A stretch of 40,515 bases of DNA from an uncultured Geobacteraceae bacterium (GTDB lineage: Bacteria > Desulfobacterota > Desulfuromonadia > Geobacterales > Pseudopelobacteraceae): the NCBI GenBank assembly GCA_903876875.1, contig CAIRBT010000038.1:1-40515 (forward strand), read 5' to 3'. This document shows, piece by piece, positions 2,619 through 36,110 of the stretch. The position numbers and the translations under genes were made by a program. Every line of letters starts with the position of its first letter. Within the stretch, counting starts at the first letter, position 1. Under the pieces are notes generated by a model. The model was not told the origin of the DNA. It was given only the letters and a program-made list of their open reading frames with translations, and did not search any database.

Positions 2619-2725
2619 TGTCAAAACATACACTTTGTAAAAACCTGTCCTGTGATCTGACCCAGGACGAGATATCCATCTACAGCCAGGAACTGGCCAT
2701 ACGCCCTGGAGGACTAACGCCATGA
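2618..2725 (+). CDS. 35-residue phage mini-protein
   Basis: The start codon overlaps the upstream stop (TAATG at 2616-2620) and the stop overlaps the next start (ATGA at 2722-2725). The frame is thus locked at both ends by translational coupling, strong evidence that it is translated. The product contains L-T-x-D-E-I-x-x-Y-x-x-E-L-A, resembling the start of a family of short phage proteins of about 50 residues that sit in recombination modules. Here it stops early, as if truncated. It also contains the GGAGGA ribosome binding site of the following ATPase gene. Function unknown. Confidence 0.6.
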   Translation: MSKHTLCKNLSCDLTQDEISIYSQELAIRPGGLTP

Positions 2726-4470
2726 ACGTCACTATAAATAATTACAGAGGGCTGGCTTCGGCCAGCCTCAACCTCTCCCGTATATGCCTGTTGGCTGGAC
2801 CGAACGAGGCCGGGAAGACTTCCGCATCACAGGCAGTGGCATCCGCACTCACCGGAGAACCGGTACCGATCAAGGGCGTTAAAAAAACTGAGTCCGGTCT
2901 GCTGGTCCGCGCCGGTACCGCGAATGCTAGCGTTGATCTGGTTGGCGCTAACGGATCCACCAATATCACTTGGCCATCTGCCAAGGTCAAAACCGAGGGG
3001 CAAGCTCCATTTGCTTCTCACTTTGCGACAGGCCTGCAGAGCATCGTCAACCTAGATGACAAAGAGCGGGTGAAGGTTCTTACCGAATACCTCAAGGCCG
3101 TTCCTACCCGCGCAGATCTGGACGCGCAGTTGTCGAGCCTGAAATTTCCGGTCAAGCACCTTGATCAACTCTGGCAACTCATTGAACAGCAGGGGTGGGA
3201 TGGTGCATGCTCCCAGATCAAGGAAAAAGGCGCACGCCTCAAAGGCCAGTGGGAAAACGTTACCGCCGATCGCTACGGCAGCAAGAAGGGCGAGAGCTGG
3301 ATCCCGGAAGGCTACTCGGATGAATTGATGGGGCAGAGCGAGGATAAACTGTCCGCCATCGTCACCGATGCCCGCGACTCACTGGAGGCTGCTATTGCTG
3401 CTGATGCTGTTGATGACTCCAAACGCGTTGGCCTTGAGGAGCTGGAAGCACTGCTGCCCGGCAGAAGAATTGATGCTCTTGCCGCTGAAGCTGCTACTGC
3501 CGACCCTGCGCTAAAGAACCAACTGGAAGAGTGCAACGGCATGATTGCCGTGATTGAAAAAAATCGCCTGGAACTGCAGCAAAAACTGACTGCGCTGCCG
3601 GCATTGACTGATACCTCCGCAATGTCATGCCCTGGTTGCGGCTGTGCCCTTCACGTTGTCGGTAAGACGCTTAAGAAAGCTCAGGAATATACCCAGGAGG
3701 AAATCGAAACCCGTCAGACAGCTATTGACGAGTTGAAAGGCAAAATTCAGGCGGCTGCCAATGCTATTACCAAACACATGGAGGCTGCAGCCAGAATTAA
3801 AAAACAGATCTACGAGGCCGAGGCTTCCAGGATGCAAAAAATCACCGAATGCAAACGCCTGGTCAAAGAATCGGAGGCCGCAGCAAAAGAGCTTGAGAAA
3901 CCGACAGCGGCTGCATCACCAATATCGGTGGATGATTGCCGTACCACTCTGTCACAGGCAGAGACTAGGATGAAAGCTTTTAAGGCAAAATTTGAAGCCG
4001 ACCGGTTGCACATTGCCATTGGTCAGAATGCGGAGCTTCTGGCGAAGATCGCACCGGAAGGGATCCGAGGTGACGTGCTGGTGAAGTCGCTGAAAAAATT
4101 CAACGAATCACTATCTCCTCTTTCCAAGGCTGCTGGTTGGCGCGCCGTAACACTGGAATCTGATTTTATGCCGACGTACGGCGGGACGATCTACCTGCTG
4201 CTGTCCGAGTCGGCCAAGTTCAGGGTACGCATCATCCTGCAGATGGGAATGGCACTGATAGACAAATCACAGGCCATCATCATCGATGCTGCGGACATCT
4301 TGGACAAGGGCGGACGCAACGGTCTGTTCAAGGCAGTGAAACAAGCAGGTATCCCTGCCTTGGTGGCAATGACTATGGATGATAAATCACTGGTTCCGAA
4401 TCTGGCCAAGGCCGGCCAGGGTTACTCATACTGGCTAAATGGTGATGCTGTCGCGGAGGCAATAGCGTGA
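2722..4470 (+). CDS. Mini-Rad50/RecF-like AAA ATPase with CxxC hook
   Basis: 582 residues. The N-terminus holds a Walker A motif at 26-33 (G-P-N-E-A-G-K-T) following a N-Y-R-G-L motif typical of RecF/Rad50/SMC ATPases. A central helical region, rich in Ala/Glu/Lys and likely coiled coil (about 160-430), is interrupted by C-P-G-C-G-C at 303-308, like the zinc hook at the tip of Rad50. The C-terminal half of the ATPase ends with a Walker B strand I-I-I-D at 519-522, followed by Ala rather than the usual catalytic Glu. Likely role: DNA-end binding or tethering with the nuclease and annealase of this operon. Overlaps its neighbours by 4 bases on each side. No separate Mre11-like nuclease is seen in the window. 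Confidence 0.78.
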   Translation: MNVTINNYRGLASASLNLSRICLLAGPNEAGKTSASQAVASALTGEPVPIKGVKKTESGLLVRAGTANASVDLVGANGSTNITWPSAKVKTEGQAPFASHFATGLQSIVNLDDKERVKVLTEYLKAVPTRADLDAQLSSLKFPVKHLDQLWQLIEQQGWDGACSQIKEKGARLKGQWENVTADRYGSKKGESWIPEGYSDELMGQSEDKLSAIVTDARDSLEAAIAADAVDDSKRVGLEELEALLPGRRIDALAAEAATADPALKNQLEECNGMIAVIEKNRLELQQKLTALPALTDTSAMSCPGCGCALHVVGKTLKKAQEYTQEEIETRQTAIDELKGKIQAAANAITKHMEAAARIKKQIYEAEASRMQKITECKRLVKESEAAAKELEKPTAAASPISVDDCRTTLSQAETRMKAFKAKFEADRLHIAIGQNAELLAKIAPEGIRGDVLVKSLKKFNESLSPLSKAAGWRAVTLESDFMPTYGGTIYLLLSESAKFRVRIILQMGMALIDKSQAIIIDAADILDKGGRNGLFKAVKQAGIPALVAMTMDDKSLVPNLAKAGQGYSYWLNGDAVAEAIA

Positions 4471-5903
4471 AATTTTCACTTCGCGATTATCAACAGACTG
4501 GCGTTCAGGCCCTCCGGGAGCGATTCCGGAGGGGTGACCGCAACGTCCTTTACCAACTCCCGACAGGTGGCGGTAAGACCGTAGTGTTTTCCTATATCAC
4601 CGAAGGTGCCAGCAAGAGAGGAAACCGCGTCCTTATCCTGGTACATCGACAGGAGCTCATCAGGCAGACTTCTGCATCATTGCATGAGATCGGTGTCGAG
4701 CACGGCATCATCGCACCAGGTTACACACCCACATGGGATAACGTCCAGGTGGCCAGTGTGCAGACACTCGTTAAACGATTGACCAAGATCCACGCTCCGC
4801 AGCTGATAATTTCCGACGAATGTCATCATGCCGGTGCCGCCTCCTGGGCAAAAATTTTCGCTCATTTTTCGCAAGCCAACATCCTGGGCGTAACTGCCAC
4901 TCCTGTACGGCTTGACGGGAAAGGCCTTGGCCGATCTGCTGGCGGGTTCTTCGATTCAATGGTGAGCGGCCCTACCGTTTCCGCACTAATCAAGCAGGGC
5001 TATCTGGCAGAACCGAAAATATTTGCCCCGCCAATCGGCGCGGACCTGTCGAACCTCCGTAAAAAATACGGTGAATTCGTTACGGCGGAATCAGCGGCGG
5101 CACTTGACAAGCCGGTCATAACCGGCTGTGCGGTTAAGCATTACCAGAAGCTGGCCAACGGGATCCCGGCGATCGCGTTCTGTTCATCTGTCGCACATGC
5201 CGAACACGTAGCCGAGCAGTTCCGGTCGGCAGGTTTCCAGGCAGCCAGTATCGACGGAACGATGCACGACAACGAACGCAAGGCGCGGATAAGTGCCTTG
5301 GGGAATGGCGGTCTGCATGTTCTAACCAGCTGCGACATTATTAGCGAGGGGACAGATATTCCGATTGTGGGTGCTGCGATCCTCCTGAGGCCTACTGCAT
5401 CAATGGGACTATATTTACAACAGGTGGGGCGATGCCTCCGGATGTACTCCGGAAAGAAACACGCCATCATTCTGGACCATGTCGGCAACGTCATGCGGCA
5501 CGGTATGCCGGACGAGGATCGGGAATGGACGCTGGACGGCGAGAATAAAACCTCCAAGAAGAAAAACGACGAGCAAGATATTAAGGTCAAACAGTGTGAA
5601 CAGTGTTACACCGTGCACGTTCCCTCGTCGCGCTGTCCATTTTGTGGTTATGTGTATGAGGTTTCCATAAGGGAAATCGAACAGGCCGAGGGCGAGCTGC
5701 AGGAGGTGGACGCAAAACGGCTGGCAGAGATCGAAGCAGACCGGAAGAAAATGTTTCAGCGCAGAGAAGAAGGTCAGTGCCGCACGTTGCAGGATTTTCA
5801 AGCACTGGCTGAACGTCGCGGATACGCGCCTGGTTGGGCATATCACCGGTACCGAGCACGACAGCAGCGCGGCGGGTCTCCGTCGCTGGCATATGCGAGT
5901 TAA
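4467..5903 (+). CDS. SF2 DEAD/DEAH-type helicase with C-terminal zinc ribbon
   Basis: 478 residues. Motifs in order: an R-D-Y-Q-Q box at 6-10 (Q-motif-like), Walker A P-T-G-G-G-K-T at 32-38, V-H-R-Q-E-L motif Ia, D-E-C-H at 117-120 (motif II), G-V-T-A-T-P motif III, and Q-Q-V-G-R-C-L-R from 318 (motif VI). After the helicase core comes a four-Cys ribbon C-x2-C-x9-C-x2-C at 377-393, then a P-G-W-A-x-H-R-Y-R-A-R-Q tail that recurs in phage helicases. It resembles ResIII/RadD-like phage helicases. Probable role: branch migration or fork remodelling during phage recombination-dependent replication. ATGA overlap with the ATPase gene. Confidence 0.88.
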   Translation: MKFSLRDYQQTGVQALRERFRRGDRNVLYQLPTGGGKTVVFSYITEGASKRGNRVLILVHRQELIRQTSASLHEIGVEHGIIAPGYTPTWDNVQVASVQTLVKRLTKIHAPQLIISDECHHAGAASWAKIFAHFSQANILGVTATPVRLDGKGLGRSAGGFFDSMVSGPTVSALIKQGYLAEPKIFAPPIGADLSNLRKKYGEFVTAESAAALDKPVITGCAVKHYQKLANGIPAIAFCSSVAHAEHVAEQFRSAGFQAASIDGTMHDNERKARISALGNGGLHVLTSCDIISEGTDIPIVGAAILLRPTASMGLYLQQVGRCLRMYSGKKHAIILDHVGNVMRHGMPDEDREWTLDGENKTSKKKNDEQDIKVKQCEQCYTVHVPSSRCPFCGYVYEVSIREIEQAEGELQEVDAKRLAEIEADRKKMFQRREEGQCRTLQDFQALAERRGYAPGWAYHRYRARQQRGGSPSLAYAS

Positions 5904-6670: not shown

Positions 6671-9310
6671 ATGATAAATGCTATGCGTGATGCTGGGTTG
6701 GACGTACCCGAGACATTACTAGACGACGGCAAGCTGCACCGGTACGCCGGGCCGTCCGACAAACCGCAGAACAAAAAGAACTGGTATATTCTTTATCCCG
6801 CCGATAACGGCTTGCAGTCTGGCGCATTCGGTCGATGGGTAGGCAACATTAACGGGGCAATCAAGTGGTGTAGCCGCGACACCAAAGAACTGACCGACGA
6901 AGAAAAGAAGGAATATCGTAAGCGGCAAGAAGATCTTCGGCGCAGACAGGCTGAAGATCGCAAGCAGGCTGCGGAAGAGTGTGTTGAAAAATGTAAAAAA
7001 ATATGGTCTGCAGCTGCAACGGCTACAGATGACCACCCATACCTGCAACGTAAGCAGGTCAATGCCTTTGGCCTTCGTCTGATGGGTGACGCGCTCCTGG
7101 TGCCGATTAAATCTCTTAAAAATGAGTTGCGCGGATTGCAGTTTATCAAGCCTGATGGGACTAAGGTTTTTAAGACCGGAGTTGATATTTCCGGAGCTGT
7201 ACATATGATCGGCACGCCGGTTGATAACACGTTGATTATCACTGAAGGTTATGCAACGGGTGCATCGATCCACCAGGCAACCGGTCATGCTGTGTTAATT
7301 GCGTTCGTGGCAGGAAACCTGAAGGCCGTTGCTGAGGCAGCTAGGTCGAAGCGTCCTGACTGGAATTATATTATTGCTGGTGATGATGACTGCTGGGCAA
7401 AAGAAACTAAAGAAGATGGCTCAATTGTTTATCATGAGGTCCCGTGCGAGTTGAACGGTGGAAAGCGGCTTAATACCGGGAGGGCCAAGGCTGAAGAAGC
7501 GGCCTGTTCTATCTCCGCAGCGGCCCGATTTCCAAGATTCGTTGATACATCGACACACCCGACAGATTTTAACGATTTGCACAACCTGGTCAACCTCGAT
7601 GCAGTTAAAGTCTGTCTGTTTCCACCTCCGATGCAAGAATACAATCCTGACTACGAACCTTGCCCTGAAGATTTTATAGATCCTTACGACGGCGACAAAA
7701 CACCGAACCCATTTCATTCCCTACCTTTTAAATTACTTGGATACAACCATGGAGATTATTTTTATCTGCCACATGGTACACGGCAAGTAAAGGTATTGCG
7801 TGCCCCGGAACATACCAAGTCTCACCTGATAGAGTTGGCGCCGCTGCAACGTTGGGAAGCTTCTGATTTCAACGGTGGGAAAAACGGCGGAATGGATGTT
7901 GATAAAGCAGCCAACGCGATGATTCAAATCAATCAGTCAATCGGTGTTTACGACTCAAATAAAATCAGGGGGCGTGGTGCATGGTTTGACGCGGATAGAT
8001 CCGTTGTACACGTCGGCAATGAATTGATCGTTAATGGATTCCCGGTCAAGATTGAAAAACTGGACTCAGAATTTATCTATGAGCGATCAATTAAAATGAA
8101 GTTCGACATCGGGAAAGACATCCTTCCGAATAGAGAGGCTATTAAGCTGGAAAAACTCTGTGACGCATTGTCATGGCAGCGTGGCGATATAAGCGGAAAG
8201 CTACTTGCTGGGTGGTGCGCTCTGTCTGCTATATGTGGTGCTCTCTCCTGGAGACCACATATTCAAATCACGGGCGGGGCTGGATGTGGCAAATCATGGA
8301 TTATTGATAATATCGTGCGTCCGGTTTCCGGGCCTGGTGCGCTCATAGTCCAGGGTGCGACGTCTGAAGCTGGGATCAGACAGGCACTCGGTGCCGATGC
8401 CAGGCCGGTTATTTTTGACGAGGCTGAGGGGGAAGATCAGAAGGCACACCAACGCATGCAGCAGATCCTTGAACTTGCACGGCAGGCGTCCAGCGAATCT
8501 GGCGGCAGTATTTACAAGGGTACTATGGGCGGACGGGCTCAGGCATTCAGGATCCGTTCTATGTTCTGTTTTGCATCAATTGGCATATCTCAGACGCAAC
8601 AGGCGGATCAGTCTCGAATATCGGTGCTGACGCTTAGAAACAAAAACGATGGCGGCAAGCATTTTCAGGAAGTAATTATCCCACTCTGGAAAGATATTAT
8701 AACTGATGATTTCTGCTCTGCACTTCGTGCCAGAATGGTTAAAACTATCCCGGTAATCGTTCAGAATGCTCTTATTTTTTCTGATGCTGTGGGGTTCGTT
8801 ATGGAGAACAAACGCGCTGGTGACCAGATAGGAGCCCTGCTTGCGGGTGATTGGGCCCTCAGATCAATAGGAGTGATAAACAAGGATGATGCTATGAAGT
8901 TTGTAAAGTCGATTGATTGGACTGAACACAAAATAACGCAAGAACAGACAGACGAGCTGCGCTGTTTATCGGCAATGCTTGAACATCTGGTACGCATGCC
9001 GTCAGGAGATAATGTCAGTATTGCGGAGTTGATCCGCACAGTTTCGGCAACGATGTTTATTGATGAAAATAGTCCGGCTCAAACAGCACTTAAAAATCAT
9101 GGTTTCAGGGTTGTACAGGGCGGTTTTTGTATTGCAAATCAGCATGGAGAGCTTAAGAAAATTATGGAGCGCACCCCGTGGCCAGCAAACTGGGCGCAGA
9201 TTATCGGTCGATTACCTGGTGCCGTTACTTCGGATAAGCCCACATGGTTTTCAGGCGGAGCGGTGCGTACCAAAATGCTGCCGTTATCATATGTTATGGA
9301 GGGAACATGA
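6671..9310 (+). CDS. Toprim primase / replicative helicase fusion
   Basis: 879 residues; start supported by GAGGG 6 bases upstream. The N-terminal ~310 residues carry a charged helical stretch (75-110), then a Toprim fold: E192 in I-T-E-G-Y-A-T-G and G-D-D-D at 237-240, as in TraC-like and phage P4-type primases; the D-F-N-D-L motif follows near 300. The C-terminal half is a DUF927-like helicase: Walker A G-G-A-G-C-G-K-S at 535-542, P-V-I-F-D-E-A-E Walker B near 577, and a conserved G-x-A-x-x-F-x-I-R-S-M-F-x-F sensor region. It would both prime and unwind at the phage origin. No separate DnaB-type gene is seen, so this is the central replication enzyme. Confidence 0.88.
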   Translation: MINAMRDAGLDVPETLLDDGKLHRYAGPSDKPQNKKNWYILYPADNGLQSGAFGRWVGNINGAIKWCSRDTKELTDEEKKEYRKRQEDLRRRQAEDRKQAAEECVEKCKKIWSAAATATDDHPYLQRKQVNAFGLRLMGDALLVPIKSLKNELRGLQFIKPDGTKVFKTGVDISGAVHMIGTPVDNTLIITEGYATGASIHQATGHAVLIAFVAGNLKAVAEAARSKRPDWNYIIAGDDDCWAKETKEDGSIVYHEVPCELNGGKRLNTGRAKAEEAACSISAAARFPRFVDTSTHPTDFNDLHNLVNLDAVKVCLFPPPMQEYNPDYEPCPEDFIDPYDGDKTPNPFHSLPFKLLGYNHGDYFYLPHGTRQVKVLRAPEHTKSHLIELAPLQRWEASDFNGGKNGGMDVDKAANAMIQINQSIGVYDSNKIRGRGAWFDADRSVVHVGNELIVNGFPVKIEKLDSEFIYERSIKMKFDIGKDILPNREAIKLEKLCDALSWQRGDISGKLLAGWCALSAICGALSWRPHIQITGGAGCGKSWIIDNIVRPVSGPGALIVQGATSEAGIRQALGADARPVIFDEAEGEDQKAHQRMQQILELARQASSESGGSIYKGTMGGRAQAFRIRSMFCFASIGISQTQQADQSRISVLTLRNKNDGGKHFQEVIIPLWKDIITDDFCSALRARMVKTIPVIVQNALIFSDAVGFVMENKRAGDQIGALLAGDWALRSIGVINKDDAMKFVKSIDWTEHKITQEQTDELRCLSAMLEHLVRMPSGDNVSIAELIRTVSATMFIDENSPAQTALKNHGFRVVQGGFCIANQHGELKKIMERTPWPANWAQIIGRLPGAVTSDKPTWFSGGAVRTKMLPLSYVMEGT

Positions 9311-9606
9311 TCCTATTGCCTCGCCTCAAATACGCTGATACTAACGGTAAATATGAGCAAATTAAATACATTTCCGGAGAGCTGGAAGAACTGTATCAAG
9401 CGTATTATCACGAGCCAAATATTAGTAGAGTGGCAGAGGAAGCAGCCGACGTGATGCAGGCCGCCATGACCTTATTATGGATTATTGAACGTGAACATGG
9501 ATTGCATCCGCTGGACGTAATCACAAAAATGATCCAGAAAAACAAAAATAGAGGGTATGAATTGACTTGTGCACGATCTGTGTACGATCTGCGCAGCCAA
9601 CAATAA
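9307..9606 (+). CDS. MazG-like nucleotide pyrophosphohydrolase family protein
   Basis: 99 residues from the ATG at 9307, which overlaps the primase TGA (ATGA) and has GGAGG 5 bases upstream; an in-frame ATG at 9244 lies inside the primase gene and was rejected. The helical pattern E25-L-E27-E28 followed by E44-E45-A-A-D48 matches the E-x2-E...E-x2-D metal-binding helices of all-alpha NTP pyrophosphohydrolases (MazG/dUTPase-2 superfamily), and the tail K-N-K-N-R-G-Y fits too. Likely role: cleaning or adjusting the nucleotide pool during phage replication. It is the last gene of the early operon; the large non-coding region begins at its stop. Confidence 0.68.
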   Translation: MILLPRLKYADTNGKYEQIKYISGELEELYQAYYHEPNISRVAEEAADVMQAAMTLLWIIEREHGLHPLDVITKMIQKNKNRGYELTCARSVYDLRSQQ

Positions 9607-9724
9607 AAAGCCTCACACGAGCTTATTTCATTACAACATTACGGTTTCATTACAGTAAAAAATACAAAATATTTAATAATATCATGCACATTACAGCATT
9701 ACATTACAATTTGAAAAACAACCC

Positions 9725-9774
9725 CACACGCGCATGTATGCGCACACACGCGCACGCATGCGCACACACGTATA
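9725..9774. repeat. 50-bp alternating pyrimidine-purine tract (Z-DNA-prone)
   Basis: From C9725 to A9774 every base alternates pyrimidine/purine without a break, mostly CA/CG/TG steps. After one break a further ten bases alternate (9775-9784). A 13-bp direct repeat, ATGCGCACACACG, lies at 9738-9750 and 9758-9770 (20-bp period). Alternating CG/CA DNA adopts the left-handed Z form under negative supercoiling. It lies between the second and third CATTACA clusters and abuts an AT-rich stretch at 9771-9792. Confidence 0.92.
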
Positions 9775-9924
9775 GTATATATATTATATATTACCGTAAT
9801 GTATTGTTATTTATAGATGGTTTGTTATTTGTAATCAGTAACTTACGGCATTACATTTTCATTACATCGCATTACAAATTAGTGTTTTTAGCCTAAAAAG
9901 ACTTGCAATATATTGATATATAAG

Positions 9925-9940
9925 CATTACATCTGTAATG
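9925..9940. promoter_or_regulatory. CATTACA palindrome upstream of terminase gene, candidate operator
   Basis: CATTACA-TC-TGTAATG, a perfect inverted repeat of the array unit with a 2-base spacer. It ends where the GGAGG of the terminase small subunit begins (9940-9944). A weak promoter-like pair, TTTAGC at 9887-9892 and TATATT at 9909-9914 (16-base spacer), would start transcription within or just before the palindrome. A protein bound here could block the promoter or the start of the late transcript. Confidence 0.5.
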
Positions 9941-9952
9941 GAGGATTTGACT

Positions 9953-10501
9953 ATGAGGAAGCTGACACCAAAACAGCAATTGTTCGTCGCGGAGTATCTA
10001 ATCGACCTGAATGCGACACAGGCTGCGATTCGAGCCGGGTATAGCCATCGCACAGCAGAGTGGATGGGGCCGCGGCTGGTCACGAAAAGTCACGTTGCCG
10101 TTGCTATACAAGACGCTATGGGCAAAAGATCTGAAAAGGTTGGGATTGAATCCGAAAAAGTATTGCATGAGATCCTGAAGCTTGCGATGTCAGATGTCAG
10201 GAAACTGTTTGATTGCCAAGGTCGATTGTTGCCAGTCCATATGCTTCCCAATGATGTAGCGGCGGCAGTGTCGTCGATCAAGGTTACCACCTCTCGGGTG
10301 CCTGGTACTGATCCAGTTGCAGTTGAATTCACAAGCGAGATTAAATTCTGGGATAAAAAAGGAGCACTGGAACTGCTCGGGAAACACCTGAAGCTGTTTG
10401 GGAACGACTCGGCAAACGCTACTGTCATCAATAATAACGTGGTAAACATCACCCCTGAAAAGCTCAAGGCTATTGCAATAGAGGTGGCACAGGACATATG
10501 A
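9953..10501 (+). CDS. terS: Terminase small subunit
   Basis: 182 residues from the ATG at 9953, with GGAGG 8 bases upstream; an in-frame ATG at 9938 overlaps that site and was rejected. The N-terminus reads L-T-P-K-Q-Q-L-F-V-x-E-Y then N-A-T-Q-A-A-I-R-A-G-Y-S, the diagnostic start of Terminase_2-type small subunits (a DNA-binding helix-turn-helix). The middle carries V-x-x-E-x-I-L-K-L-A-M-S-D and the end an oligomerising G-K-H-L-K-L-F region. It recognises the pac/cos site and recruits the large subunit, whose gene it overlaps by ATGA. First gene of the late operon and directly downstream of the CATTACA region, which may also contain the packaging site. Confidence 0.92.
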   Translation: MRKLTPKQQLFVAEYLIDLNATQAAIRAGYSHRTAEWMGPRLVTKSHVAVAIQDAMGKRSEKVGIESEKVLHEILKLAMSDVRKLFDCQGRLLPVHMLPNDVAAAVSSIKVTTSRVPGTDPVAVEFTSEIKFWDKKGALELLGKHLKLFGNDSANATVINNNVVNITPEKLKAIAIEVAQDI

Positions 10502-11943
10502 ACCCAGACTATTCAACTCCAGAATACAAGCTGGCAATAAAAAACCAGGCATCAGAGGACCTGTATTTTTTCTCGCGGTGGATGTTCTACAAGCGGAAAA
10601 ATTTCAGATGGCTGCGCGGCCCTCATCATCGAGAGATATGCGATGCGCTGATGAGGGTATTCAACGGCGAGTGCACGCGCTTGATTATCAACGTGGCACC
10701 ACGCTACAGTAAGACGGAGCTGGCGGTGGTCAATTTCATGGCGTACTGCCTCGGCAAAGTTCCGGACGCTGAGTTTATACACACGTCGTACTCGGGCAGG
10801 CTTGCGGCAAATAACGCATGGCAGACCAGGGAAATGGTGCAGAATGCCGATTACCGCGAGATATTCCCGGAAGTAAAAATCAGGACTGATAGCAGCGCAC
10901 GTGATGAGTGGAGGACCACTGCTGGCGGGTGTGTGTATGCGGTCGGGGCGGGTGGGACGATTACCGGATACGGGGCGGGTAAACACCGAGAAGGGTTTGG
11001 CGGAGCAATAATTATTGACGATCCGCACAAGGCCGATGAAGCTCGCAGTGATGTTATCCGTCAGGGGGTGATTGAGTGGTTCCAAAACACGTTGGAGAGT
11101 CGCAAAAATAGCCCACACACACCGATAATCCTGATCATGCAACGGTTGCACGAAAAAGACCTGGCTGGTTGGTTGCTGGACGGCGGAAATGGAGAAAAAT
11201 GGGAGCACGTATGCCTCAAAACTTTGAAAGACGACGGTCAACCGTTGTGGCCGGAAAAGCACAATCTTGAGGCCTTGAAACGGATGAAGACAGCCGCACC
11301 GTACATGTTCAGCGGGCAGTACCAACAAAGCCCATCCCAGCCAGAGGGCAATATTTTCCGGCCTGACGTTGTCCAGATCGTTGGCGCAATTCCTGCCGGA
11401 ACTCGCTTTATTAGAGCATGGGACTTTGCTGCTACAGAGAATGATGGCGACTGGACAGTGGGAGGTAAGCTCGGGAAGCTACCGGATGGTAGATTTATTA
11501 TTGCCGATGTTGCCAGATTCCAAGGGCGACCCGAAACGGTTGAGGCTGGGTTGATTAACGCCGCAAAGCGTGATGGCAGCGGATGCCGGATAAGGATACC
11601 TCAGGATCCAGGCCAGGCTGGCAAATCACAGGTTGTATATTTTACACGACAACTGGCTGGGTACACAGTGACATCAAAACCGGTTACGGGTGACAAGGTC
11701 ACGCGTGCTGAACCGTTTGCCTCACAGGTGAATATCGGCAACGTGATGATGCTTAGAGCCGAGTGGAACGATGCCCTGATATCTGAAATGAGGGTATTCC
11801 CAAATGGGGCACATGACGACCAGGTGGACGCACTGTCAGACGCATTTGCAGAGCTGACTGATAACAATTTCGGGATGCTGGACTATTACGAAAACGAGTA
11901 CCGGCAGATGGTGGAAGCGACCGGTGGCAAGCCACCTAATTAA
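10498..11943 (+). CDS. terL: Terminase large subunit
   Basis: 481 residues. The ATPase domain has a divergent Walker A, A-P-R-Y-S-K-T at 67-73, and Walker B I-I-I-D-D with D174, preceded by the G-x-x-T-G-Y-G-A-G-K motif common in this terminase group. The C-terminal RNase H-like nuclease shows D309 in R-A-W-D-F-A and H-D-D-Q-V-D-A-L with D440, D441 and D444, which coordinate metal. It pumps DNA into the procapsid and cuts the concatemer. Stop at 11941-11943, followed by a T-rich stretch (11944-11952). Confidence 0.95.
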   Translation: MNPDYSTPEYKLAIKNQASEDLYFFSRWMFYKRKNFRWLRGPHHREICDALMRVFNGECTRLIINVAPRYSKTELAVVNFMAYCLGKVPDAEFIHTSYSGRLAANNAWQTREMVQNADYREIFPEVKIRTDSSARDEWRTTAGGCVYAVGAGGTITGYGAGKHREGFGGAIIIDDPHKADEARSDVIRQGVIEWFQNTLESRKNSPHTPIILIMQRLHEKDLAGWLLDGGNGEKWEHVCLKTLKDDGQPLWPEKHNLEALKRMKTAAPYMFSGQYQQSPSQPEGNIFRPDVVQIVGAIPAGTRFIRAWDFAATENDGDWTVGGKLGKLPDGRFIIADVARFQGRPETVEAGLINAAKRDGSGCRIRIPQDPGQAGKSQVVYFTRQLAGYTVTSKPVTGDKVTRAEPFASQVNIGNVMMLRAEWNDALISEMRVFPNGAHDDQVDALSDAFAELTDNNFGMLDYYENEYRQMVEATGGKPPN

Positions 11944-18453: not shown

Positions 18454-19033
18454 TAGGGTGAGATGCGTACCTCGTGCGGGTACAAAAACATTCGCGTTTG
18501 TAGTTTCTTACGGGAAAGTGTGGATTAATGGAACTCTCAGAGGTGGTGGTACATACACGTTCAACAACATGAGCCAGTTTGTCGCTACATTAAATGCATC
18601 AGGCGGAGGTGGTGGTGATGACACAAGAGGCGGTTATGGTGGTGGGGTGGCAACCGTGAACAACGTCAATTCGTTCACGGTTGCGGGGTCAGTTTACATA
18701 GGCGTTGGCGGTGGTGGTGGTGGGGACAATGCTTATGACGATGGCATGGGGGGACCAGGGTTGTCTATAGGTTCCGCGTCAGGGGGGTATGGTGGTTGGG
18801 CATCAGATGGTGGCCCCGGAACCGGAGCGGCGTCTGGTTTCGGATCACCCGCATTTGTGGATGGTGGGGGTTGTGGCGGAGGCGGTGGCAATAACGGTGG
18901 TTATGCCGGAGGCAATGGAGGGTACGCGTCAGGCATTTGTACCATAGCCGGTACATACTACTGCTACGCAATTGACGCAGCGTATACGGGTTCTAATGGT
19001 TGGGATGGCACTGTAGAAATAACCGTATCATAG
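18443..19033 (+). CDS. Glycine-rich adhesin-like protein (polyglycine type)
   Basis: 196 residues; GAGGTG 7 bases upstream of the ATG, which lies inside the previous gene. About a third of the protein is glycine, in runs such as G-G-G-G-G-D-D, G-V-G-G-G-G-G-G-D-N and G-G-G-C-G-G-G-G-G-N-N-G-G, separated by short beta segments. A short N-terminal beta part (F-A-F-V-V-S-Y-G-K-V-W-I-N-G-T-L) precedes it. The composition recalls polyglycine-II sandwich adhesins such as gp38 of T-even-like phage S16, where glycine helices carry variable host-binding loops. Together with the preceding fibre and chaperone genes it looks like a host-recognition cassette. The match is by composition, not alignment. 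Confidence 0.62.
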   Translation: MLADRVRCVPRAGTKTFAFVVSYGKVWINGTLRGGGTYTFNNMSQFVATLNASGGGGGDDTRGGYGGGVATVNNVNSFTVAGSVYIGVGGGGGGDNAYDDGMGGPGLSIGSASGGYGGWASDGGPGTGAASGFGSPAFVDGGGCGGGGGNNGGYAGGNGGYASGICTIAGTYYCYAIDAAYTGSNGWDGTVEITVS

Positions 19034-34670: not shown

Positions 34671-35858
34671 TCACTTTGGTTGTTGGCTGATGTCATCAAG
34701 ATAATCAGCCCATTGCTGCATCATGACCGTACGCTCCGGGATGAATGACGTCCGATTGTATGCCCTGCCGTTCGTATCTCTGACTGAGTGCGCAAGCTGG
34801 TGTTCAATCAAATCCACTCGCACTTTTAAGACTTCGTCCAAAATAGTACGGGCAGTCGCACGGAAACCATGGCCGGTAACTTCATCTTTGCTGTAACCCA
34901 TTCTGCGTAGTGCCGTATTTACTGTATTTTCGCTCATAGGGCGTCCAGATGTGAGCTGTGACGGAAAAACATACTTGCCTTTACCGGTGATGTGTCTCAA
35001 CTCATTTAGACATGCCAGAGCCTGTGTGCAGAGCGGTACAATATGCGGTATTCGCATCTTCATTCGTTCGGCTGGGATGCTCCACATTACTCCGTCGATC
35101 TCACTCCATTCCATTGTTCGCAGTTCAGTTGGGCGGACAAAAAGCAATATTTGTAATTTTATGGCACATTTTGTGATGATAGAACCGGTGTATTCATTGA
35201 TTGCGGCATAAAGCGCGCTTAGTTCTTTCGGATCGGTGATGGCCGCATGGTGTCCGCCTTTGACAGGGGGGAGGGACCCGCGAAGGTCATCAGCAATATT
35301 TCTGGAAGCACGGCCGGTAGCAATGGCATATCTCATAACCTGGACACAATCATACCTGACCCGGTGCATAATATCGGGAGAGGATATTTTACTCAGAGCG
35401 GCCAATAGTTCTTGTGCTGTAATGTCGTTGACATCCATACCGCCAACTTGAGTGAGGATATATTTTGTGAGCCTTGTAAGCTTTCTTTCAGAATGATCCT
35501 TTGTCCATGTGCTTCCGAACTTATGGTGCCACTCGTGGGCGACAGCTTCAAAGGTGTTTTTGGCTGTAGTTGCCATGCGCATAGCTTTTTTGACAGCATT
35601 AGGATCCACGTTTGACAGTATTTGCTTTTTTGACTCTTCTCGCTTCTCCCTGGCTTCAGCCAGGGAGAGGGTGGGGTATGCTCCCAGGGACAGAGTCAGC
35701 CGCTTGCCCGCAAATCGGTAGTCAAGTCGCCAAAGCTTCCCGCCTGTGGGGGTGACTAGCAGATACAGACCTCCGCCATCGCGGAGTGCATAATCTTTAT
35801 CTGTCGGTTTTGCCTTGGTTATTTCCCTGTCTGATAGTGGTAAAATACGCTTCGGCAC
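34671..35858 (-). CDS. int: P4-type tyrosine recombinase / integrase
   Basis: 395 residues, GTG start (35858) with GGGAGA upstream. N-terminal DUF4102 arm-binding domain (L-S-D-R-E-I-T-K-A-K-P, L-R-D-G-G-G-L-Y-L-L-V-T-P-T-G-G-K-L-W-R). Catalytic domain with R242 (V-R-P-T-E-L-R), H330-x2-R333 (T-G-H-G-F-R-A-T-A-R-T), H357 and nucleophile Y367 (A-Y-N-R-T-S-F), all present. It recombines phage attP with a host tRNA. The gene is read away from the tRNA-Cys, whose 3' end is 179 bases from its start codon. The only minus-strand prophage gene, so expressed separately. Confidence 0.95.
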   Translation of the reverse strand: MPKRILPLSDREITKAKPTDKDYALRDGGGLYLLVTPTGGKLWRLDYRFAGKRLTLSLGAYPTLSLAEAREKREESKKQILSNVDPNAVKKAMRMATTAKNTFEAVAHEWHHKFGSTWTKDHSERKLTRLTKYILTQVGGMDVNDITAQELLAALSKISSPDIMHRVRYDCVQVMRYAIATGRASRNIADDLRGSLPPVKGGHHAAITDPKELSALYAAINEYTGSIITKCAIKLQILLFVRPTELRTMEWSEIDGVMWSIPAERMKMRIPHIVPLCTQALACLNELRHITGKGKYVFPSQLTSGRPMSENTVNTALRRMGYSKDEVTGHGFRATARTILDEVLKVRVDLIEHQLAHSVRDTNGRAYNRTSFIPERTVMMQQWADYLDDISQQPK

Positions 35859-35873
35859 TGGTTTTCTCCCTAT

Positions 35874-35926
35874 TTGACAGTACCCGGTTTTATGGTGTGT
35901 TCAAATACTGTCACGGCTACTGTCAA
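35874..35926. repeat. TTGACAGTA repeats in integrase promoter region, candidate arm sites
   Basis: TTGACAGTA at 35874-35882 (plus), TGACAGTA at 35906-35913 and TTGACAGTA at 35918-35926 (both minus), plus one plus-strand copy inside the integrase gene at 35612-35620 and a near copy at 35590-35598. Two minus copies are 12 bases apart. This pattern beside an attachment site suits integrase arm-type sites or autoregulation; the TTGACA of one copy could also serve as a -35 box for the integrase gene. Confidence 0.5.
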
Positions 35927-35974
35927 AAACTGTCTATCCATATCTATCATTATCTATTTAAATCTACAATAAAA

Positions 35975-36003
35975 ACAAAAAAAGCCCCTGAAATCAGGGG
36001 CTT
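35975..36003 (-). terminator. Rho-independent terminator after tRNA-Cys
   Basis: AAGCCCCTGA-aa-TCAGGGGCTT, a perfect 10-bp stem. On the minus strand it is followed by a T-rich run (from the A-rich bases 35975-35981), so it terminates the tRNA transcript 34 bases beyond its end. It also separates tRNA transcription from the integrase gene, which is on the same strand. Confidence 0.85.
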
Positions 36004-36036
36004 ATCTATTGATGTCTACGGTATTCTTTCGGGTAA

Positions 36037-36060
36037 TGGAGGCGCGTGTCGGATTCGAAC
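36037..36060 (-). other. Probable attachment site (3' end of tRNA-Cys)
   Basis: The 3' half of the tRNA, including the T-arm and CCA end, faces the integrase. P4-type integrases commonly use the 3' part of tRNA genes and bring a copy that restores the tRNA. The matching copy should exist at the other end of the prophage, outside this window; I found none inside. Exact limits are inferred. Confidence 0.55.
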
Positions 36061-36110
36061 CGACGTTAACGGTTTTGCAGACCGGCTCCTAGCCTCTTGG
36101 ATAACGCGCC
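36037..36110 (-). tRNA. tRNA-Cys (anticodon GCA)
   Basis: On the minus strand: acceptor stem GGCGCGT pairs with ACGCGCC, anticodon loop CTGCAAA (anticodon GCA), T-arm GTCGG-TTCGAAT-CCGAC, and an encoded CCA end. The bottom pair of the anticodon stem is a C/T mismatch as read, a small oddity. A terminator follows on the same strand. Confidence 0.93.

Follow-up and report, generated by a model that had tools for sequence, protein, structure and literature searches.

A two-armed CATTACA repeat array beyond the primase-helicase gene of a Geobacteraceae prophage is a probable PICI/SaPI-type replication origin

The window (the whole stretch of DNA analysed here) is an entire contig of 40,515 bp from an uncultured Geobacteraceae bacterium. 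It bears a prophage whose genes run from recombination genes through a helicase, a VRR nuclease, a primase-helicase, and MazG to the terminase, portal, head, tail, and endolysin genes, with an integrase beside a tRNA-Cys gene. Between RecT and the primase, we noted an SbcC-like ATPase and a ResIII-type helicase (2722–5903). The integrase, a tyrosine recombinase, and the tRNA-Cys (36037–36110), likely the attachment site, lie within 34671–36110, and past them are YebC-like and MsrA-like host genes, named from sequence, the PHROG matches in this part being to families of unknown function. At the contig end, positions 1–242 comprise a 66-bp tandem repeat (3.7 copies, 97% alike) encoding DUF4116 repeats (E 1.2e-21), within which the contig probably broke.

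The fused TOPRIM primase-helicase, which we propose as the initiator (Table 1), displays a Walker A motif (GGAGCGKS) and a DEAEGE motif in its alignment. Its helicase part aligned with the DUF927 group over 233 columns (hhalign, probability 90.5) in a one-to-one profile comparison; a DUF927 identity was rejected, as PF06048 had no match at E ≤ 0.1 in any of the eight members scanned. Comparison of the primase profile with solved structures gave no credible relative (best E 0.16). The MazG-like gene probably starts at ATG 9308, within the reading frame listed. For the terminase small subunit (TerS), the likely start is ATG 9953, with a GGAGG at 9940–9944; the ORF call at 9938 would begin within the last repeat of the array described below. 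The large subunit (TerL) of the window belongs to PHROG_38.

Table 1. Features at and around the repeat array (window coordinates).
Feature	Position	Strand	Remarks
Fused TOPRIM primase-helicase, 879 a.a, proposed initiator	6671..9310	+	PHROG_35358 DNA primase, E 3e-164; Toprim_3
MazG-like gene between primase and array	9244..9606	+	Pfam MazG, E 3.4e-5
Left iteron arm	9629..9708	+	CATTACA at 9629, 9648, 9689, 9697, 9702; CATTACG at 9637
Alternating purine/pyrimidine block, perfect, 50 bp	9725..9774		run-length shuffles
Putative DNA unwinding element (TATAGTATATATATTATATATTAC...)	9770..9830		stability minimum
One-mismatch iteron-like units	9795..9836	-	at 9795, 9800, 9830
Right iteron arm	9849..9940	+	CATTACA at 9849, 9860, 9870, 9925; inverted copy at 9934
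Exact CATTACA, plus strand	9629, 9648, 9689, 9697, 9702, 9849, 9860, 9870, 9925	+
Exact CATTACA, inverted	9934	-
One-mismatch units, n = 4	9637, 9795, 9800, 9830	+, -, -, -	CATTACG, CATTACG, CAATACA, GATTACA, respectively
Terminase small subunit (TerS), first late gene	9938..10501	+	Pfam Terminase_2, E 9.7e-37

Within 312 bp (9629–9940) lie ten exact copies of CATTACA, nine on the plus strand and one on the minus strand, together with four one-mismatch units, in agreement with the ten perfect and further one-base-variant copies counted in an earlier sequence-only reading of this DNA. That reading also placed the array between the end of the primase-helicase/MazG genes and the start of the terminase and saw helical-turn spacing in one of its clusters, and both points hold: 22 bp separate the MazG stop (9606) from the array, the end of which is 12 bp upstream of the likely TerS start, and the units at 9849, 9860, and 9870 are spaced by 11 and 10 bp. 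As mazG intervenes, the array is not immediately 3′ of the primase gene, the stop of which lies ~320 bp away.

The CATTACA array is real. The count against shuffled controls proposed earlier puts it beyond chance: 2000 local dinucleotide shuffles of the 312 bp gave a mean of 0.37 and a maximum of 3 copies, and the densest 312-bp cluster in 300 whole-window shuffles also held 3. Across the window, we counted 14 exact copies (mean 4.9, maximum 10 in 100 whole-window shuffles), and only four of these lie outside the array, which upholds the far lower density first noted elsewhere. In a scan of all 7-mers, CATTACA at the array was the densest (9 per 312-bp step window), followed by CACCACC (7 at 18541), with the best 7-mer in 20 shuffles reaching 3 to 6. 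In the 3.93-Mb genome to which the window belongs, the pattern CATTACA-N(0-12)-CATTACA has four matches, each inside the array, and its reverse has one. Neither BLASTN of the array interval, run against phage and E. coli genomes, nor Rfam gave a match, and GC skew showed no switch at the array. Two relatives carry the same array, namely G013 and the viral contig L005, the primases of which are 96% and 85% identical to that of the window, respectively. ORFs running across the array (109 a.a in the window, 101 a.a in G013) were rejected as coding, given that L005 has no frame open throughout.

The units fall into two arms (9629–9708 and 9849–9940), which flank an AT-rich region (9770–9830). The lowest-stability 30 and 60 bp of the 40.5-kb window both start at 9770, and the lowest-stability 100 bp at 9768; likewise, in 6/6 array-bearing loci for which this was computed, the 60-bp stability minimum of all DNA fetched falls within the array. 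Beside this region is a 50-bp block of perfectly alternating purines and pyrimidines, compared to longest runs of 24 bp in 300 whole-window shuffles and 39 bp in 1000 local shuffles. The corresponding block in G013 is also 50 bp long, and all 13 of its differences from the window are transitions, as opposed to 23 transitions and 14 transversions in the flanks (p=0.0065), suggesting that the alternation is kept while the sequence drifts. In L005, the block differs from that of the window by 17 transitions, two transversions, and one gap, and alternation extends for no more than 26 bp at a stretch, which makes the block a less firm feature. Comparison of the same interval in relatives, as proposed earlier, showed the units to be conserved above the spacers: in an alignment of the window, G013, and L005 arrays, 60/68 unit columns are identical, compared to 148/244 spacer columns (p=6e-6), and the four plus-strand units of the right arm are identical in all three, with the inverted unit identical in the window and G013. 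As these three arrays belong to one family, this base-level conservation rests on few lineages.

Arrays in the same place, with other repeats, were found beside related primases. Using a mechanical criterion (at least five copies of one 7-mer in 350 bp, within the last 100 bp of the primase gene and the 1.5 kb beyond its stop), we identified arrays in 16/65 TOPRIM-primase loci, the window and G013 included, with 12 distinct motifs; near-duplicates (window/G013, L267/L268, and L293/L294) are counted separately in this figure. The same five-copy test within the primase gene, a control region that differs in length from the 1.5-kb downstream region, was positive in 1/65 loci (p=5e-5). The set comprised the window, L005, L291, L292, 25 viral loci (L290, too short, was dropped), and 36 hand-chosen stretches, taken from the match list mostly for long open frames. 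The remaining 49/65 loci fail the criterion, among them L005 and L292, the arrays of which are further away; in loci with the helicase encoded by a gene of its own, the array comes after that gene and is missed.

Named phages with related genes were inspected in two hand-chosen groups, with several showing an array immediately 3′ of the replication gene. In the first group of 12 (chosen from 60 listed of 101 records, plus one from a 110-record list), the array directly follows the primase or helicase gene in seven: 1N2-2 (CGGTACA ×8), PB15 (TGAACCA ×8), S1 (CCGCACA ×11, just before the TerS gene gp3), phiAH14b (GGGAACA ×8; a satellite, PMC4936722), CGphi29 (ATGTCCC ×5), KLER1-1 (GCTTACA ×5), and Mcat3 (CCTGCAC ×8). 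In the MQ-4 and Persinger phages, an array occupies an intergenic gap further on, and ep3, Mano, and M29 are without one. A further 11 phages were chosen for full-length or C-terminal-half similarity (from 40 listed of 110 records). Among these, the phi1422 phage has GGTAACA ×11 directly 3′ of rep, S-H1 has a weaker array in the same position, Acjo_20 has TGTAACA ×9 upstream of rep, and ZRG1 has GGCTAAC ×8 ~4.5 kb downstream of rep; the other seven (PBb002, PY223, Jeremy, PHB04, Mwe-JY13, Mecenats66, and ST4) show no convincing array.

The repeat appears to vary with the helicase half of the protein, of which several kinds can be told apart by C-terminal sequence. A half like that of the window was found by profile (built from 8 of the 23 loci matched) in 23/89 loci scanned, and 8 of these 23, representing six lineages, have arrays of at least five copies with a TTA(C/G) core, such as those of phi1422, Acjo_20, ZRG1, and KLER1-1 given above and that of MQ-4 (CGGTAAC ×5). 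Among loci with other helicase types, arrays of at least five copies are present in 30/66, and the core in four (L286–L288 and L305). Collapsed by hand into lineages, the core is found in 6/12 with the window's helicase type and 2/23 with other types (p=0.011), in a test that was chosen after part of the repeats had been seen and that counts the best array anywhere in a locus. By eye, L292 (GTTACA ×7 as a 6-mer) and S-H1 (CTAACGGT) are also of TTA(C/G) type; L292 stands outside the 6/12, and S-H1 (CCGAACG mechanically) is scored there as a miss. L267 and L268 have the window's helicase type but GTCAGAA as their repeat. Given that the core goes with the helicase type, there is moderate support for the helicase half, ending in its C-terminal domain, as the putative reader of the iterons. 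Eleven of the 23 loci of this helicase type (L265, L266, L269, L280, L382, L384, L387–L390, and L392) have no convincing array in the fetched DNA. Four of them do hold a 5-copy 7-mer, situated in the rep gene (L269 and L384) or in or overlapping annotated genes (L382 and L392), which we judged to be chance occurrences.

We then compared what lies on either side of the array in relatives. In G013, similarity to the window ends at 9951, and the array is followed by short ORFs and then a TerS (Terminase_2) similar to that of the window over 77 a.a only. In L005, an IS200/IS605-like insertion separates MazG from the array (TnpA and TnpB, named from translations, at 8958–10614, with short AT-rich repeats near 10700 after them), and the array is followed by a 190-a.a gene with no Pfam match and then TerL. 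The TerL of both relatives is PHROG_2/5902, in contrast to the PHROG_38 of the window. Conversely, among the best 80 of at least 600 TerL relatives (58–78% identity), the array was found upstream (up to 3 kb) in 0/80, including seven with a TerS match, although the test is weak for ten of these loci, which have <1 kb of upstream sequence; the most CATTACA copies in any of the 80 was four, over 2.5 kb (L220). Being kept in G013 and L005 beside differing neighbours and absent upstream of TerL relatives, the array follows the replication module, and TerS, while adjoining it, shows no linkage with it among the relatives compared. Searched at the DNA level, 293 relatives gave four matches, namely the window's own genome, G013, and two marginal short ones. 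TerS relatives occur in 16/196 genomes, of which the G013 and G049 neighbourhoods were examined, and a search of viral contigs gave no TerS relative; in G049, an array is situated 3 kb downstream of rep, where it immediately precedes TerS as it does in the window. Scanning eight early proteins of G013 against PHROGs gave an excisionase-like and a repressor-like protein, the rest being unknowns or without match, and no other initiator was recognised among them.

Viral contigs with three CATTACA within short gaps gave at least 120 stretches, many of them simple tandem repeats or in unrelated contigs, and these were used as leads only, having been selected by motif. Such CATTACA/TGTAATG arrays lie at L064 2868, L116 7678, L054 1057, and L063 6003, those in L054 and L063 being mirrored triplets with 8–9 bp spacing and those in L064 and L116 lying directly upstream of a TerS-like gene.

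The position of the array beside terS invites the reading that TerS binds it as a cos or pac site, as the R-sites of lambda cosB adjoin Nu1. The arrays directly ahead of TerS in the window and G049, of the TerS-like gene in L064 and L116, and of gp3 in the S1 phage favour this. However, none of the 80 TerL relatives has the array in the upstream DNA inspected, the seven with a TerS match included, G013 and L005 retain it despite a differing TerL and, in L005, a differing next gene, and the arrays of 1N2-2, phi1422, and phiAH14b follow rep with no terminase annotated alongside, leaving a packaging site very unlikely. The same comparisons bear on operators for an early-module regulator controlling the terminase operon, the late-gene switch that the sequence-only reading offered as one of two explanations. 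The array does mark the boundary between early and late genes, and a regulator encoded in the early module would move together with that module, such that linkage alone is not decisive here. Nevertheless, as with the packaging site, linkage to the late genes fails, with the array kept beside differing packaging genes and absent upstream of the 80 TerL relatives, and elsewhere arrays precede a MazG-like gene (1N2-2) or unknown genes (phi1422, phiAH14b, and PB15) or lie upstream of rep (Acjo_20). Judged by the E. coli consensus only, 9500–10050 contains no plus-strand sigma-70-like promoter, the one promoter-like match being on the minus strand (mean 2.4 in shuffles), and neither the stability minimum nor the alternating block is an operator feature. 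We therefore consider a late-gene switch highly improbable.

Partition loci can also contain repeat arrays, and ParB-like genes are annotated near rep in the PY223 and Mwe-JY13 phages. Nonetheless, a PHROG scan of 30 window proteins gave no ParA or ParB, and the integrase beside tRNA-Cys indicates an integrated element, while a functionless relic is at odds with units conserved above their spacers; a parS-like partition or incompatibility site, or a relic, is thus extremely unlikely.

The array is very probably the replication origin of the prophage, of PICI/SaPI type, as judged from its two-arm layout, its putative melting region, the way it stays with the replication gene in relatives, and the recurrence of this layout with different repeats in other phages, which support iterons for an initiator, the other explanation first put forward. 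Two features of an iteron origin are present (repeats beyond chance and an adjacent AT-rich, easily melted region), as is one of the PICI/SaPI type, two iteron sets around the AT-rich region. The primase-helicase probably binds the CATTACA iterons via its C-terminal half, and would load on both arms as self-loading rings, melt the AT-rich 9770–9830, unwind outward, and prime both forks, with the alternating block beside the melting site possibly absorbing supercoiling stress by flipping to Z-DNA. This mechanism would follow, by analogy, the published SaPI Rep/Cch2 model (PMC7581432). We infer protein binding, melting, replication start, and the role of the alternating block from sequence, and the main weaknesses of the reading are this inferred binding and the many relatives with the same helicase that lack a convincing array nearby. 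Relatives with the same genes and no repeats, named at the outset as grounds for refutation, do exist in part, as the distant L265, L266, and L269 loci (43–45% identical).

According to PMC6092414, PICI/SaPI origins lie 3′ of the primase/initiator gene, as in the window, and terS may follow; a PICI origin of the same layout was tested there by plasmid maintenance. In contrast to these, the element in the window is a complete phage in which mazG stands between rep and the origin, and it adds a GC-rich alternating purine/pyrimidine block. It is not a PICI as a whole (i.e., a satellite relying on the virion genes of a helper), having its own terminase, portal, head, tail, and endolysin genes. Its primase is of DnaG-type TOPRIM, unlike the AEP primases described for SaPIbov1 and SaPI5 in PMC7581432, where SCCmec Cch2 and SaPI Rep are presented as helicase-initiators that use their C-terminal domain to bind iterons situated directly 3′ of their own gene. 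According to the same paper, Cch2 works with three 5-nt iterons, its polymerase-primase being a separate protein, compared to ten 7-mers and a fused primase in the window. The relation of the window protein to the DUF927 members SaPIbov1 Rep and Cch is by one-to-one profile comparison only.

The alpha protein of the P4 phage is, like the window protein, a fusion of a primase and an initiating helicase. In P4, unlike the window, ori and crr are two distinct sites. The P4 primase is given in PMC4936722 as 42% identical to AH14b_p15, and P4 alpha, ori, and crr are also treated in passages of PMC7145576 and PMC6092414. AH14b_p15 is a TOPRIM relative in our set, and the P4 likeness runs via this protein, not the window protein. 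The origin of the pRN1 plasmid, according to PMC4234260, is essential non-coding DNA directly 3′ of the primase-helicase gene, a placement likened there to several bacteriophages, but takes the form of a 100-nt stem-loop in which the authors found no iterons, unlike the window. The lambda-type origin of the temperate Francisella phage KIRK has four repeats in an AT-rich region, though these form a single set within a replication gene and do not lie 3′ of a primase-helicase, as described in PMC7924643, whereas the window has two arms.

The earlier note had called the candidate origin undescribed, and this stands for the origin itself, which is not in the literature searched, and falls for its kind, a PICI/SaPI-like iteron origin being already known. 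Titles and abstract starts of the open-access PMC papers retrieved, a set mostly excluding subscription papers, do not describe two-arm iteron origins for this phage group, and a term search of the phi1422 genome paper (PMC3391216) found neither 'origin of replication' nor 'iteron'. The layout is stated in PMC6092414 to be common to no known replicon other than PICIs. Several full phages here have the PICI-type layout, as does the window save for the mazG in between, which bears on that statement and therefore on the source of PICI replicons.

We lean modestly towards a wider reading, in which the PICI/SaPI-type origin is a replicon design common among tailed phages at large and not peculiar to satellite islands. 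A primase carrying a modular helicase-initiator would have a two-arm iteron origin of its own behind it, and the 7-base iteron would change with the helicase half while the layout stays. If so, islands and phages would draw on one pool of rep-ori cassettes, and the window's family would have an extra origin component, a block that keeps its alternation while drifting in sequence and absorbs stress in the manner of Z-DNA. Besides a candidate origin and initiator for a Geobacteraceae prophage, the same rule gives candidate origins for the 1N2-2, PB15, S1, CGphi29, KLER1-1, phi1422, and Mcat3 phages, none of which is marked in the fetched annotation. The initiator types and their repeats offer a comparison set for repeat-reading residues. 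By eye, many of the repeats seem to end in ACA. In four Geobacteraceae-related loci (L302, L303, L304, and L310), the primase gene itself contains five or six copies of GTCAC, on both strands, in its final 230 bp, and these are partly readable as VTD/VTN protein repeats, as if iterons overlap the coding end.
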